The notes under the pieces were generated by a model, which was given only the letters and a program-made list of their open reading frames with translations, was not told where the DNA came from and searched no databases. Below, one piece after another: positions 19,602-30,074 of a stretch of 64,000 nt of DNA. The stretch comes from Amanita rubescens (Eukaryota > Basidiomycota > Agaricomycetes > Agaricales > Amanitaceae). A program made the translations under genes and the position numbers. Numbering within the stretch: the stretch's first letter is position 1; every line of letters starts with the position of its first letter. The DNA lies in assembly GCA_015039365.1 (NCBI GenBank), contig WION01000198.1, positions 1 through 64,000 of the forward strand, written 5' to 3'.

Positions 19602-19856
19602 TATCCCACTGTATTATTCAATGCTCATAGTAGTGTTTGGTGTATGATAACGTGTCCGCACATCCTGGTGTCCCCATCCGCGGATGGTTTATGGCAATGT
19701 CAAGATCGATAACATATATTATGTTTTCAAGGCACACAATCTTCCGCGGATTATTTATATATTTTGTGACCTGCTAGAGGCCAAATCAATACAATAACCC
19801 CCCCGCAGTATACACTATACCCCCTATGCTAACTCCGAAAAGCACCTATAATAGTA

Positions 19857-20760
19857 TTTACGCATGGTTTCAATTGGTCACATCACTATGTTTGGCTAAG
19901 TAGAAAATAATCTTCAACATATTGCAACATCTCAAGTCACTGATAATTGGCACCAAATAGTCCGCACATCTCACCACTGTCATCTGCGGTATATTTACAC
20001 ATGGTTTCAATTGGCCACATCACTATGTTTGGCTAAGTAGAAAATAATCTTCAACATATTGCAATGTCACTGTCTCAAGTCACTGATAATTGGCACAAAA
20101 CAGTCCGCACATCTCACCACCGTCATCCGCGGCATATTTACACATGGTTTCGATTGGTCACACCACTATGTTTGGCCAAGTAGAAAATAATCTTCAACAT
20201 ATTGCAACGTCTCAAGTCACCAATAATTGGCACAATGAAACAGTCCGCACATCTCACCACTATCATCTGCGGCATATTCACACATGGTTTTGATTGGTCA
20301 AATCACTATGTTTGGCTGAACATAAAATAATCTTCAACAGATTGCAATGTATTGAGTCGTTGATAATGGGCACAAAATAGTCCGCACATCTCACCACCGT
20401 CATCCGCGGCATATTTACACATGGTTTTGATTGGTAACAACACCATCTTTGCTGAACGTAAAATAATAATCTTCAATAGATGGCAATGTCTTGAGTCGCT
20501 GATAATGGGCACAAAACAGTCCGCACATCTCACCACTGTCATCCGCGGCACATCTACACATGGTTTTAATTGGTCACATCACTATGTTTGGCTAAGTATA
20601 AAGTAATCTTCAACATATTGCAATGTCTTGAGTCGCTAATAATTAGCATAAAATAGTCCGCACATCTCACCACTGTCATCCGCGGCATACTTACACATGG
20701 TTTTGATTGATAACACCACTATATTCTGTGGCTAAATGAATACAAGTAAATCTTCCGCAC
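19857..20760. repeat. Tandem repeat, ~133-147-bp unit, 7 copies
   Basis: Units start at TTTACACATGGTTT-like sequence near 19,857, 19,990, 20,137, 20,277, 20,413, 20,554 and 20,690. Each contains CACTATGTTTGGCTAA, TAATCTTCAACA and a 30-nt hairpin relative TCCGCACATC...CGCGGC. Unit length varies by small indels. Confidence 0.85.
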
Positions 20761-23027: not shown

Positions 23028-23640
23028 CTCACCAATAGCCTGGCTCTCATTCAACGCTGCTGATGACACTCGGGCTTGAGCGCAGAGTTTCATTACAGCT
23101 ACGTTCACATCTCTGCATCAATTCTCTCTCAACATCAATGGCTTGGCATCTCATTCAAAGCCACCAACAACACTCGGGCTTGACAGCTACGTTCGTTTCT
23201 CGACGTCGATATCTCTCTAGGGAATGACTTGGCCTCTCGTTTGACGCTGCTAATGACACTCAGGCTTGAGCGCAGAGTCTCGTCACAGCTACGTTCGTTT
23301 CTCAACATCAATATCTCTCTAGGGAATGACTTGGCCTCTCGTTCAACGTGCTAACGACACTCAGGCTTGAGCGCAGAGTCTCGTCACAGCTACGTTCGTT
23401 TCTCAACAGCAATATCTCTCTAGGGAATGACTTGGCCTCTCGTTCAACGTGCTAATGACACTCGGGCTTGAGCGCAGAGTCTCGCCACAGCTATCTTCGT
23501 CTCCCACCATGATTATCTCTCTCATGAATGGCCTCGCCTCTCGCACAAGCTGCTAGCGACACTCATGCTTGAGCATGGACTCTCGTCACAACTACTTCAC
23601 TTCTCAACATCAATCAATCTCTTTCAATATGTTCCTGCTC
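23028..23640. repeat. Tandem repeat, ~100-bp unit, about 6 copies
   Basis: Units carry GACACTC(A/G)GGCTTGAGCGCAGAG, CAGCTACGTTCGTTTCTC and ATCTCTCTAGGGAATGACTTGGCC. The central three are nearly identical and the outer ones are decayed. Frames through it are unrelated between copies, so it is not coding. Confidence 0.85.
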
Positions 23641-24410: not shown

Positions 24411-27400
24411 AGATATATCAGCTAGGATTCCAGCCCAAAGAAGACAGAAACAGGACTTACATAATAAATTGCTAAGAACTATTTTTCTGTATTCAGCACA
24501 CTCTTCTTCAGATGGGCAATGCTTCATGATGAACCAATCATTGATGCCCATTGACCTCAAGTAGTTGTCCAAGTCTTGTTCAACCAGTGCATGCTGGGTG
24601 TTGAGATAATATTTCCAGGCCTTGGTGAAGCCATCATTGGAATTGCAGCCTTGCTGGACAAGCCAGAAGGAATGTTCAAGACAGATGAGAATGGCTGTAC
24701 AGGTAATGGTAAGAAACTGTAAATATAAGAGAAAGGGTAAAATTAATCAGACCAATGAAACAATGCAAAGAAGGTGCCTATGTAATTGGGAATACTTGAT
24801 TGAAGGGAATGAAAAGAATGAGATATGATCTTACATTGAATTGAGTGTCCATAAGACCCTGAACATGGTTCACCTGTGAAATGGATGCCTATTAATAAAG
24901 TAGAGGAAAGAGAGTAGGTGGGAGAAGACAGATACAAACTAAACAAGATGTGAGAGTGATGTTAGTAATTCAGGAAATGCAGTGACTCACTTCCTGGATG
25001 GGAATTCATGGCAACATGTCAGCAATTCAAATTGAGCTAGGAGGCACACAGTCACTCACAAACTGGATGGGATTTCATGGCAACATGTCAGCAATTCAAA
25101 TTGAGCTAGGAGGCACACAGTCACTCACTCCCTGGATGGGATTTCATGGCAACATGTCAGCAATTCAAATTGAGCTAGGAGGCACACAGTCACTCACAAG
25201 CTGGATGGGATTTCATGGCAACATGTCAGCAATTCAAATTGAGCTAGGAGGCACACAGTCACTCACTCGCTGGATGGGATTTCATGGCAACATGTCAGCA
25301 ATTCAAATTGAGCTAGGAGGCACACAGTCACTCACTCGCTGGATGGGATTTCATGGCAACATGTCAGCAATTCAAATTGAGCTAGGAGGCACACAGTCAC
25401 TCACAAGCTGGATGGGATTTCATGGCAACATGTCAGCAATTCAAATTGAGCTAGGAGGCACACAGTCACTCACAAACTGGATGGGATTTCATGGCAACAT
25501 GTCAGCAATTCAAATTGAGCTAGGAGGCACACAGTCACTCACTCGCTGGATGGGATTTCATGGCAACATGTCAGCAATTCAAATTGAGCTAGGAGGCACA
25601 CAGTCACTCACTCCCTGGATGGGATTTCATGGCAACATGTCAGCAATTCAAATTGAGCTAGGAGGCACACAGTCACTCACTCCCTGGATGGGATTTCATG
25701 GCAACATGTCAGCAATTCAAATTGAGCTAGGAGGCACACAGTCACTCACTCCCTGGATGGGATTTCATGGCAACATGTCAGCAATTCAAATTGATCTAGG
25801 AGGCACACAGTCACTCACTTGCTGGATGGGATTTCATGGCAACATGTCAGCAATTCAAATTGAGCTAGGAGGCACACAGTCACTCACTGCCTGGATGGGA
25901 TTTCATGGCAACATGTCAGCAATTCAAATTGAGCTAGGAGGCACACAGTCACTCACTCCCTGGATGGGATTTCATGGCAACATGTCAGCAATTCAAATTG
26001 AGCTAGGAGGCACACAGTCACTCACTCCCTGGATGGGATTTCATGGCAACATGTCAGCAATTCAAATTGAGCTAGGAGGCACACAGTCACTCACTGCCTG
26101 GATGGGATTTCATGGCAACATGTCAGCAATTCAAATTGATCTAGGAGGCACACAGTCACTCACAAGCTGGATGGGATTTCATGGCAACATGTCAGCAATT
26201 CAAATTGATCTAGGAGGCACACAGTCACTCACAAACTGGATGGGATTTCATGGCAACATGTCAGCAATTCAAATTGAGCTAGGAGGCACACAGTCACTCA
26301 CTCCCTGGATGGGATTTCATGGCAACATGTCAGCAATTCAAATTGAGCTAGGAGGCACACAGTCACTCACTCCCTGGATGGGCAACATGTCAGCAATCAA
26401 ACCAAGTGAAGGAGGCACATAGCAACTCACCTTCTAGATATGAGGTGAATCATTTCTATCAATTTGGAGTTCTCCATATAAGTTACTTATTACCTCCTAT
26501 AAACTACATTCACAAGTTATATTCCTATCACTTTGAAATTCTTACATTTTCCCCCTTATCATTTGCATAATTAGTATGTTGTTGAATTAGCTTAATGTCA
26601 TACTCACATACTGAACATCCAGGTTAAACTTTGTCATCAATATTTGGTCATGATACTTACATCCTGAAACATCTGTCATCACCATCTTCCCTGGCTCAAG
26701 TAGAAGTGGACTCTCACATAATCCTTCTCAATTTCAGTCATGGCTCAAGAAAATGTATTTCAATTTGCATACCTGCCAATAGCAATGTCCAAACCAAGAT
26801 CCAGCCTTGTAAATCAAGTCATGCTTTGTCTATTTGAGCACTCATAGTATCTGTACAATTCAAGAAAAAATGTACCACTGTTAAGGTATCCTGAAAGATA
26901 TACCTGAAATAGAGAGATAAGTTGAAGCAACAGCAGACAAGTGAATCACAGACTTGTTCACTGCATATTCAATGCAGACCTCTAGGTTATTCTGTTGGAC
27001 AGTGACAAACAACATCTTCAGTGCCAAGTTGTCAATTGATGCCGCCGTCTGTTTGATTAGTTTCCCAACTTGTTCCTGATGATTACCTTCATCCTTCTCA
27101 ATAGCTGGACACACTATAAGTCCCAAGATTGGTTGCTAAAGGAGAAGAGACATACATTCAAATTGCACATATGCACAAGGTGAAGACTTATAATGCTTGA
27201 GTGGCTCCTCGAACTTCTCCTTCAAGGTAGCACAAGCAACTTCTCTATTCTCCTCTTCTTCTTTATTTATATCATAGACCTGCGTGATGAGATCATCGAA
27301 TTTCGTGAAGATTGCCACAACTGGAACTGTTCATTGTCAGTCACAATGAAGAGTTTGGAGATTTTAAATGATCTTACCATTCCCACAATATTTCTCATTG

Positions 27401-30074
27401 AAGAACCTCTGTTCCAATTCCAATAATGGGCGAGATACATCCGGAGTGAAACAAAACCTGAACACATTTCAGTTGTGCTACATAAAGGAAGGATATAACG
27501 CACCATATCACATGGATTTGGTCCTTTACTTCAGTTGCTTTTGCCTTCTCCTGTATGAAAGAGCATACTTCCTGAAGTTCCTTCTCGCCTCCTGCCTCGA
27601 AACCGGGAGAGTCGTGGAAGATAAATTGTGGGTTGCTATTGAATGAAAACTCGTCACATCAGCAAATTGTCAAATTCCGCTTTGGGCCCTTTCACTTTGA
27701 AGGGCCCACTTTTCTCACTTTTACCCATAGCCTTTCAGCTTTCATACTTTTAACTTTGGGTGTAACTAGCTTTTAGTAACTTGGTACACTTTCACTAGTA
27801 TTTTACCCGAGCTTTAGCTACATGGAACTTTGTAACGTATTCCAGTGTAATCCATGTGAATTTACAAAAATGGTGCTCTCATCAAGACTCGAACCCAAGG
27901 ACAATGACAAGACAGCAACGCGCTTTAACCACTAAGCCACAACGGCTCTTATCTATATTAGCAACTAATCGCTGATATACCCAAAATTGGCACCCACACC
28001 ACCAACACTATTTTAACCTCCTATTCAACTTAGTACCACTATTGTTCCTGTGTGTAGCGGTTGACGTGTCGCGTCAAGCCTCGCGACGAACGCGCGCGAG
28101 TCGCCAATGAAAAAAAAAATCAAAGTCCATTGTTTGCCAGGTGACCAAACAATGGACTTACCCTTTGCCCAGCGTCCTTCCCCGCCGCTTCGCACCTGCC
28201 GTCCCTCACCTCCAGGCCACTCACTCAACAAGACCAGCAAAGGTGAGTGTATGATGTTTTTGGTCATACATATTGGTGATGGATGTGCCAGTTCAGTTAC
28301 CCGGAACTGCGTGAACGCCGAGCGATGCAGGCGGCCTCTGCTAACCAGTTACCACATGAATCATGATGGACTCGGGAGTTGCTCAGGGTAAGTCATCTTC
28401 GCATATACTCATTTCACCGTGCCCCTGCCTGACCAGCTTCACCCCCGCTGCTGCTACCACCCGCAAGTGAGACCTTTTCCACATCAAGTACTTGCACCCT
28501 ACCCACCTGCAGAAGATGACGTGCGTTAGGCATAAACTCACTCCCACAATGAGCCTCGGCCCCTCCAGCGCCGATGACAAGGTAGGCATTAGCTAATATT
28601 GCACGCATTCAGCGATTTTCTGATCTATTCGATCTGTGTTGGCGAATGATACAACTGCTGAACGGACAAGTAGCAAACAGGTGAGTGAGTATGCTATACT
28701 TTTAGCGCACGTTACGCTATAATGAAACTTTAGTGATGCCAGTGTATGCGCCTTGTTCTCGATGGAACTGATATCCTTGTCGCATCCGGTGGACCCCGCA
28801 GTGGACTCCGCATGACGCCGCAAAACTCACAAGAAGGTCGTCGAATACCGTACCACCCTCTTTTCGGATACGATCGAGGCCAAGTTCAACGAGAAGACAT
28901 GGGAGTCAATTCTCGCCGAAGCACGAAGGTTCGCAAGAACAGCCGCTGCGAAGACCGCCGGAAAGAACCAGAAGAGCAACAGGAAAAGAAATCGATTAAC
29001 CTTCGTCTTGTGTTGCGCGTGATACTAGCCTCCATCGTTAGTTCAATTACGCTCCGGAAAAGTCCAGTTCACGTTTTCTTTTCTACGCCGTACTGAATTA
29101 TATTCGCTAGACGTGAACGCATTACTTTTTCAACTTCTACGCATTCGGCAGCCTCAAGATTCATCGCTTTTATACTTCTACACCCAAGTGACTCTTTCCT
29201 GACGCCGGCACGTCACACGGACCATCGTTTACTCAACCACATGCACCTGTCTCGCTGTATATGCTTTTCTGACTCCCGAGGAGTATCGCTTGCTCGTTTC
29301 TGGACTGTATGAGCTCTTAACTGGCCTGCTTTGCTTTCTACGATACCGCGCTCTATCCCAAGCATTGCTTAATCGTGTCCACTGTCGTTAGCTTTTAAAA
29401 TAATAAAATTGTTGCTTTAAAACTTTCTCCACTTTCAAAAGTGATAAAAGTCGAAAATCTACTTTCGAAAGGGGCGAAAGTGGTCTACTTTCCTTTCAAA
29501 AGAAAAAAGACCTTCCTTTTGAAAGTGATCCCCACTTTCACCACTTTCACCACTCTCGCACTTTTGAAAGTGGTGAAAGTGGTGAAAGCCGGACTTGACA
29601 ATTTGCTGATGCATGGACGTTATGGATCCCTCGCTACAGAATCAAAGTCAACAACCTGGTTAGAGAAATGCACAAGGATCACCTTCGAGGATGGGTTAAT
29701 CTGTCGGTGAAGGGGTGATGATAGTGCCAGGGTATCAAGGGAAGCGGATATCTTACCTTGCTGTAAACCGGATCCTCCTTTGTATTGCAGACCCGCTTGA
29801 GCAGCGTCGTTTTACCGGCATTCGCCCTCCCGATGACAAGGATACGGAAGTGGGTGTACTTGGCCCGGAGTTTTGCAGTTTCTACCGGGTCGATCGTCAT
29901 CGTTGATACAGTGGGTGCTAGATCAGCTGGACTCGGAGGCACAGCAATGGTTGGAGGTGCCGAATTCGAGAGGCTAGGAGGCGTAGCGTTCTGCGATCCC
30001 CGTCCGAACATCTTCTTCAGGCGATTGCGAAATCCCTTGGATTCTTTGGCAGTCTGCAACCGTTGGTCAGCCAT
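24399..30074 (-). CDS. P-loop GTPase gene with 3-nt micro-exon tail, interrupted by a transposon
   Basis: A GTPase of the TRAFAC/MMR_HSR1-AIG1 type. Exon 1 (30074-29757) holds a Ser/Pro linker then G1, GRANAGKT. Exon 2 (29683-29700) is 18 nt. Exon 3 is split: its 5' part (29633-29612) and 3' part (27656-27504, with HDSPGFE as G3) are separated by a 1.95-kb element. Exon 4 is 27457-27378. Exon 5 (27326-27156) has FTKFDD as G4. The next exon starts near 27113. After 'AVNKSV' the gene dissolves into exons of 3-9 nt, then the 22 single-codon exons at 26433-24991. It ends with a 54-nt exon (24888-24835) and a last exon (24716-24399) with a hydrophobic start ('TITCTAILICLEHSFW') and a helical tail. 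Every step has GT...AG sites and keeps frame. The insertion in exon 3 has no splice sites at its ends, so this copy may be inactive. GTP binding is inferred from motifs; the cellular role is unknown. Confidence 0.75.
24991..26433 (-). other. Tandem intron/micro-exon array (22 exons of 3 nt)
   Basis: On the minus strand each 69-bp unit reads as a 66-nt intron (GTGAGTGACT at the start, TTGCTGACAT as branch site ~25 nt before the end, CCCATCCAG at the end) plus a 3-nt exon. Exons lie at 24991+69k to 24993+69k for k=0 to 20; one more (AAG) lies at 26431-26433 after a diverged 57-nt intron. Exon codons are GGA x8, CGA x3, TTT x3, CTT x3, GCA x2 and CAA, GAA and AAG once each. None is a stop. Introns differ only at one G/T position (plus strand GAGCTA or GATCTA). 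The plus strand shows a 474-residue open frame because 69 is divisible by 3. Confidence 0.85.
26434..26723 (-). other. Upstream micro-exons of the GTPase gene
   Basis: Candidate exons GATTAT (26718-26723), GAT (26661-26663), TAT (26608-26610), GGGGAAAAT (26546-26554) and GAG (26494-26496). They are separated by introns with unrelated sequences and mostly good signals (GTAAGT, GTGAGT, GTAAGA donors; TTCAG, ATAAG, ATAG acceptors). All lengths are multiples of three. The GAG exon has the weakest donor (GTAATA). Confidence 0.55.
27870..27949 (-). repeat. tRNA-like (SINE-type) promoter sequence
   Basis: The minus strand has a box A-like TGGCTTAGTGGTTAAAGC (27938-27921) and a box B GGGTTCGAGTC (27895-27885) at normal spacing, plus CACCA at the end. 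The acceptor and T stems do not pair well, so a working tRNA is unlikely. It resembles the head of a tRNA-derived SINE. Confidence 0.55.
28123..28159. repeat. Perfect 14-bp inverted repeat
   Basis: AAGTCCATTGTTTG (28123-28136) and its complement (28146-28159) around a 9-nt loop, inside the TIR element. Confidence 0.8.
28610..28990 (+). pseudogene. Exon-like remnant inside the TIR element
   Basis: A frame after an ATTCAG acceptor ('DLFDLCWRMIQLL...') ends at a GTGAGT donor at 28,681. A second frame from ~28,735 reads 'VCALFSMELISLS', has one TGA at ~28,812, then continues to 'TTLFSDTIEAKFNEKTWESI' and a Lys/Arg tail. It looks like a broken gene piece carried by the element; family not recognised. 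Confidence 0.35.

Follow-up and report, generated by a model that had tools for sequence, protein, structure and literature searches.

The GTPase gene on the minus strand of the 64,000-nt stretch of Amanita rubescens DNA analysed here (contig WION01000198.1, positions 1 to 64,000; the window) contains a tandem array that is best explained, with a probability of about 0.87, as a run of true U2-type introns lying in sense orientation, each removed separately, so that the 3-nt exons between them would be joined in frame 0 as a linker. The gene is one of a large A. rubescens GTPase family, part of whose coding sequence appears to be written one codon per exon, an arrangement far more extreme than that of known small-exon genes. 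The length of the separators (locked at 3 nt), their phase and avoidance of stop codons, the conservation of the splice signals, the hypervariability of the codons, the fast turnover of the arrays and, among the matches listed, the association with one kind of host gene can all be read directly from the genome sequence, while homologues support the notion that the codons of two diverged arrays correspond to a contiguous peptide in transcript-like proteins.

On the minus strand, positions 24991-26433 parse as 22 single-codon exons and 21 introns, running from AAG (26433-26431) to GAA (24993-24991), and the coordinates, strand and exon number put forward by a first-pass annotation of the window are therefore correct. 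All 21 introns begin with GTGAGT, end with CAG and contain TTGCTGAC, in agreement with the donor, branch site and acceptor which that annotation had assigned to every unit; GT...AG ends, a consensus donor and a branch motif are the marks of U2-type introns. The accompanying claim of 66-nt introns throughout holds for twenty of them but not for the first, which is 57 nt long. Tandem Repeats Finder (TRF) returns a 69-bp unit with a 97% match, the minisatellite period that had been described. Between HCYWQ and the exons VNHVQGLMDTQFN and FLTITC on the far side of the array, all parts join in phase 0 and no stop codon intervenes, which bears out the proposed location of the array inside the GTPase gene, on the appropriate strand and between the exons for the G domain and those for the C-terminal domain. 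The predicted tail of the protein opens with DYGENEK, continues with codons for mainly G, L, R, F, A and Q, and then reaches FLTITCTAILICLEHSFW. The proposal that these are introns and single-codon exons is supported by five tests (the 3-nt lock, the depletion of stops, the diverged arrays, the position and strand of the host genes among the matches listed, and the agreement of decoded peptides). Three features go beyond that first account: a genome-wide spread amounting to thousands of single-codon exons, the 57-nt first intron and a 1955-bp insertion further upstream in the gene.

A 410-base query taken from the array has 188 matches in the genome, on many contigs. The window and 25 fetched regions make up a subfamily sample of 26 arrays, in which a strict parse, beginning late or ending early in some arrays (L013, L028, L031-L033), finds separators of 3 nt in 540 of 548 cases and introns of 56 to 72 nt, 494 of them of 66 nt. 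In the full units of 24 arrays, GTGAGT starts the intron in 485/485 and CAG ends it in 484/485, although the parse itself required a GT[AG][AG]GT donor and AG. A wrap-around alignment requiring neither signal, the units of which are meaningful only inside homogenised arrays, still places GTGAGT at the start of 541 and CAG at the end of 545 of 553 units. Across the whole genome the tile pattern GTRAGT-N44..70-YAG-NNN-GTRAGT, which in the window matches 21 times on the minus strand and 0 times on the plus strand, occurs 5650 times, as opposed to 56 for the reversed pattern that served as control. Separators of 0 to 26 nt together yield 6562 tiles against 1965 in the control, the 26 lengths other than 3 nt sharing about 912 tiles, fewer than the control, and tiles with 6-nt separators number 110 against 131. 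The excess is therefore confined to 3 nt and does not extend to 6. Some counts may hold duplicates or both haplotypes; near-identical flanks with the same array are seen in three pairs, L025/L026, L023/L024 and L016/L017, the last two on one contig. Further arrays, known as match coordinates alone, lie at C8:77465-79875 (+) and C223:1460945-1462942 (-), where periods of 56 and 71 bases correspond to one codon together with an intron of about 53 or 68 nt, respectively. Short runs with 6-nt separators and a step of 68-70 bases, at C190:187688-188421 (+) and C229:26233-26444 (-), hint at two-codon exons.

If the separators are codons, stops should be avoided in the frame in which they are read. 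Genome-wide, TRA separators (TAA and TGA, the stops covered by these counts) number 3 against 4 in the control, while the sense separators VRA number 2554 against 10, and TRT, sense separators that also begin with T, number 230 against 5. Within the 26 arrays, stops occur in 0/540 positions in frame 0, 0/514 in frame 1 and 9/514 in frame 2; these arrays by themselves leave frame 1 possible, and the genome-wide test together with the flanking exons points to frame 0.

Two diverged arrays on contig C1 carry the argument beyond the homogenised subfamily. L034 parses into 83 introns of 32-79 nt, with lengths modulo 3 of 18/34/31 and separators of 3 nt in 77/82 cases; its reverse complement yields 6 introns and three shuffles yield 1 to 3, none forming a comparable chain. 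The donor is GTGAGT or GTAAGT in 60/83 introns, under a parse that favours such donors, and many of the introns retain a recognisable common sequence with substitutions and indels. L035 has 54 introns (modulo 3, 22/19/13) and separators of 3 nt in 48/53, bringing the two arrays to 125/135, and none of these 125 single codons is a stop. Tiling thus persists although the introns have diverged, and a repeat of recent origin does not account for it. Aligned with its near-identical counterpart P0094, L035 agrees at 219 of 229 positions; one stretch of its GTPase domain is out of frame, which could reflect a defective copy, a misassembly or a fault of the aligner.

The codons decoded from these arrays can be compared with homologous proteins. 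After an exon ending in LSETQ, consecutive single-codon exons of L034 read W F E Q G K K E T D R E T K Y D G, and 13 of these 17 residues are identical in the stretch LSETKWFEKGKKESDREIEYDG of P0011; one of the identities (E) depends on a 12-nt separator, TTTACAAAGGAA, that was re-read by eye as the acceptor AAG followed by GAA. For scoring, peptides were assembled from consecutive tile codons, namely the first 41 array codons of L034 and, for L035, the array without its first four separators, one 4-nt and one empty separator and the last codon, and each score was set against the best of 2000 shuffles. The L034 peptide scores 86 with P0011 (shuffle best 53) and 76 with P0050 (47), and the L035 peptide 79 with P0061 (54) and 74 with P0057 (52), compared with at most 40 and 35, respectively, for the N-terminal parts of the compared proteins. 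P0011 has 386 residues on a contig of 1446 bases and is, for that reason, presumably derived from a spliced transcript; its tail, used as a query, had no matches beyond itself, P0050 and P0006. In the case of the window subfamily, P0218 (367 residues, 1554-base contig) contains SYDYGKTEEGGLGGGRLGGRLGHLRLGLGGRGGGLGHLRLL and, further on, LTVFAALVICLENSFW, with a stretch rich in G, L and R between flanks similar to those of the subfamily. A general spliced alignment of protein tails to the genome was dropped as too lenient, having skipped tiles to reach matching codons, and the spliced aligner was kept for ordinary exons only.

The placement of the arrays relative to GTPase genes was assessed with 51 array clusters, built from the places listed for TRT tiles minus ten of the eleven C223 places, and with GTPase matches from 100 + 73 listed rows, mostly one row per gene. 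A GTPase match lies within 5 kb of 26 of the 51 clusters, among the matches listed, and in all 26 it is upstream and on the same strand, other arrangements numbering 0. Within 9 kb, again among the matches listed, 27 are upstream on the same strand, 3 downstream on the same strand and 5 downstream on the opposite strand, leaving 22 clusters without a listed match. When 86 further listed rows were tried on those 22, one cluster, C105, was placed, with its GTPase match upstream, on the same strand and 2.6 kb away; L035 was counted among the clusters without a match even though a GTPase lies upstream of it. As for the identity of the domain, the Pfam MMR_HSR1 cut-off of 21.9 bits is passed by two of the four proteins scanned, P0121 (30.9) and P0130 (24.3), while P0057 (19.3) falls under it and P0011 has no match.

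Several observations weigh against the separate removal of single-codon exons. Separators did not parse as 3 nt in 8/548 cases in the subfamily and in 10/135 in L034 and L035, and the score of the L034 peptide with P0037 (46, where the best shuffle reaches 44) is only just above chance. The transcript status of P0011, P0050, P0057, P0061 and P0218 is deduced from short intronless contigs. Moreover, the best A. rubescens genome matches of P0011 and P0057 are below 90% identity among the matches listed, and these proteins therefore probably come from other species, in which case they attest to production of the peptide in relatives rather than to the splicing route by which it arises. An A. rubescens transcript across an array was sought, and P0094, which agrees closely with L035, ends ahead of the array. 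The layout of P0218 resembles the window linker, but the match lies mostly in flanks and composition and is no more than suggestive. No GTPase match within 5 kb is found for 25/51 clusters among the matches listed, and within 9 kb one listed upstream match is on the opposite strand. The C-terminal motif SFW is missing from all eight A. rubescens gene models fetched, which is also what would be expected if gene finders fail at 3-nt exons; P0001, the gene model of L034, stops ahead of the single-codon region. Finally, the copy in the window is probably disrupted, its full protein not being made, because the 1955-bp insertion sits in the upstream coding exon 2.

The mechanism suggested by this architecture starts from short introns (about 50-75 nt) with near-perfect donors, which would be recognised by intron definition. 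Since an exon of 3 nt has no room for two spliceosomes at a time, neighbouring introns would be removed one after another, each splice giving the next donor a longer upstream exon, and the linker that connects the GTPase and C-terminal domains would thereby be built one residue per exon. As every exon is one phase-0 codon, the gain, loss or skipping of a unit would keep the frame. In the subfamily of the window, the introns seem to have been homogenised into a minisatellite, in which unequal recombination may reshuffle a limited set of codons, mainly GGA, GCA, CGA, TTT, CTT, CAA, GAA and GTT, so that the linker would change faster than the flanking gene. The splicing of the window array, the order of removal, recombination, exon skipping and any benefit are what we infer here.

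The most variable part of the repeat unit is the 3 nt between the introns. In 485 full units from 24 of the 26 arrays (those with at least six full units), intron sites have a mean diversity of 0.019, as opposed to 0.60, 0.68 and 0.41 at the three codon positions, and one identical 66-nt intron, which occurs 335 times, is associated with ten different codons. L009 and L013 share 99.95% of 2037 flanking bases and yet differ in their codon strings (that of L013 being incomplete in the comparison), and L022 and L024, at 99.75% identity, have quite different strings. Array turnover is, on these comparisons, much faster than gene turnover. The contrast between codons and introns may reflect selection, conversion limited to introns, or old shared codon variants.

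Single-codon splicing could be real and yet selectively neutral, an intron with a sense codon being nearly harmless in a loose linker and free to spread by tandem duplication, and this is a serious contender at slightly less than even odds. Neutrality accounts for the 3-nt lock, stop avoidance, phase 0 and a turnover like that of minisatellites, as well as for separator numbers that range from fewer than ten to about 80, and the C-terminal domain behind the array would make a frameshift or a stop costly. Equal mutation and turnover, however, predict similar diversity in codons and introns, contrary to the values above, unless old shared codon variants combined with intron-only conversion produced the contrast in the absence of selection. 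More tentative is the notion that the arrays are a dedicated generator of peptide diversity across the GTPase family, in which the linker would be assembled residue by residue, recombination between identical introns would shuffle the codons and selection would keep the string diverse, with variety arising by recombination, exon skipping or both. A generator based on splicing, with differing sets of single-codon exons being skipped to give a pool of linkers from one gene, is somewhat less probable still and rather unlikely; symmetric exons with near-uniform donors and acceptors lead one to expect alternative pairings in frame, but constitutive, ordered splicing fits equally well.

Much less credible is an ordinary minisatellite within one large intron, spliced from the first donor straight to the last acceptor, with the signals in between going unused. 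The 69-bp tandem repeat with its 97% match is what such an element would look like, but unused separators should drift in length, contrary to the excess of N3 tiles (5650 versus 56), and should gain stops, contrary to the near absence of TRA relative to VRA (3 versus 2554); diverged arrays, moreover, keep the tiling, and their codons match homologous proteins. That the plus strand instead encodes a 23-residue repeat protein, with the splice-like motifs of the minus strand coincidental, is scarcely tenable despite a stop-free frame of 478 codons with one hypervariable residue per repeat, given that the longest antisense open run covers 95% or more of the array as parsed in just 5/26 (WIN, L009, L018, L027 and L030) and 0.27-0.90 of it in the other 21, that it reaches only 339/5280 nt in L034 and 285/3310 nt in L035, that an open antisense frame does not require the absence of TRA from the sense strand, and that the array is flanked by GTPase exons on the minus strand.

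The separate splicing of single-codon exons is assumed in the layout of the window gene given in Table 1. The insertion in exon 2 ends in inverted repeats of 17 identical bases and is accompanied by a 2-bp duplication, and no second copy of the 1955-bp element was found among the fetched loci; paralogues free of it exist (L009 and L013). Other tandem repeats lie near the gene, at 19855-20722 and 23183-23614, with units of about 137/276 bp and 101 bp (TRF).

Table 1. Predicted exons and associated features of the GTPase gene in the window.
Feature	Coordinates	Strand	Basis or remark
GTPase exon 1, P-loop GRANAGKTT	29751..30074	-	95% identity with P0121 (annotated in A. rubescens) over its residues 1-108
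1955-bp insertion within GTPase exon 2	27657..29611	- (nominal)	Missing from near-identical paralogues L009 and L013
Rest of GTPase exon 2 (FSFNSNPQFIFHDSPGFEAGGEKEL...)	27504..27656	-	Gene-chain reading, comparison with P0121 and paralogues
GTPase exon FCFTPDVSRPLLELEQRFFNEKYCGN	27378..27457	-	Gene-chain reading
GTPase exon PVVAIFTKFDDLITQ... with the TKFD motif (G4 type)	27156..27326	-	Gene-chain reading
GTPase exon IEKDEGNHQEQVGKLIKQTAASIDNLALKMLFVTVQQNNLEVCIEYAVN	26954..27104	-	Gene-chain reading
Exon YIFQDTLTV	26876..26903	-	Gene-chain reading
Exon HDLIYKAGSWFGHCYWQ, last ordinary exon ahead of the single-codon region	26773..26823	-	Similar to P0134 and P0218
Single-codon exon GAT (D)	26661..26663	-	Chain parse
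Single-codon exon TAT (Y)	26608..26610	-	Chain parse
9-nt exon GGGGAAAAT (GEN)	26546..26554	-	Chain parse
Single-codon exon GAG (E)	26494..26496	-	Gene-chain reading; the automatic chain had a 10-nt separator here
Single-codon exon AAG (K), first of the 22	26431..26433	-	Gene-chain reading
21 introns (57 nt, then 20 x 66 nt), one codon after each: G G F L A G G A Q G G G R F L R R L G F E	24991..26430	-	
Single-codon exon TTT (F) behind a 52-nt intron	24936..24938	-	In 10/12 aligned copies, window included
Exon VNHVQGLMDTQFN	24835..24873	-	Alignment of copies, gene-chain reading
C-terminal-domain exon FLTITCTAILICLEHSFWLVQQ...VLSNLL (opens FLTITCTAILICLEHSFW...)	24461..24716	-	Similar to P0130, P0218, P0165 and P0160
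Antisense stop-free frame, 478 codons	24986..26422	+	Judged a by-product of the 69-bp period

The exons of schistosome micro-exon genes (MEGs) are small but longer than one codon. The Amanita unit, unlike these, is a single codon, occurring in runs of as many as about 80 in a large family of fungal GTPases, with introns that are homogenised in the window subfamily. MEGs are described as having much of their coding sequence in very small symmetrical exons (PMC4350168), and the likeness lies in tiny symmetrical exons from which residues can be gained or dropped without a frameshift (PMC4350168). The window gene has many such exons, 22 phase-0 single-codon exons as judged from sequence, but most of its coding sequence is not in tiny exons, since only the linker is tiled and the GTPase and C-terminal domains are in ordinary exons. 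The bicycle and megacycle genes of aphids contain many microexons (more than 100 in megacycle) and evolve rapidly (PMC9168663). They resemble the Amanita genes in having many microexons per gene and in evolving fast; the Amanita exons are in phase 0 and 3 nt long. Introner-like elements are scattered among unrelated genes. The Amanita copies, in contrast, are in tandem, one codon apart, and their host genes, where identifiable among the matches listed, are of one family. What is shared is the multiplication of similar spliceosomal introns, in families, within a fungal genome (PMC4457414). Isolated 3-nt exons occur in Drosophila homothorax, troponin T and NCAM (PMC7392893), and plants have 1-nt microexons (PMC8831610). 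Such isolated exons of 1-3 nt show that the spliceosome can include 3 nt or fewer, but they are single exons, whereas the Amanita runs tile dozens. In Trichoderma, Xlr2 has a functional microexon, and its authors state that none had earlier been described in filamentous fungi (PMC11121469); that is one microexon acting as a regulatory switch, and the Amanita case is an array. No report of tiled one-codon exons was found among the papers listed in searches of an open-licence library. The arrays are accordingly rated as an extreme form of microexon-gene architecture, and a dedicated diversity generator, still hypothetical, would be something new.

The absence of SFW from all the fetched models suggests that the gene models of this large GTPase family may lack the linker and the C-terminal domain, probably because the exons are below the limits of gene finders and read aligners. 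The architecture also suggests that an intron together with its codon may act as a frame-safe duplication cassette. If confirmed with RNA, the arrays would represent an extreme of exon-intron structure, with dozens of consecutive one-codon exons and thousands of instances in a single genome, and they would offer a natural setting in which to study intron definition, the sequence of removal of adjacent introns and the steric limits of the spliceosome.
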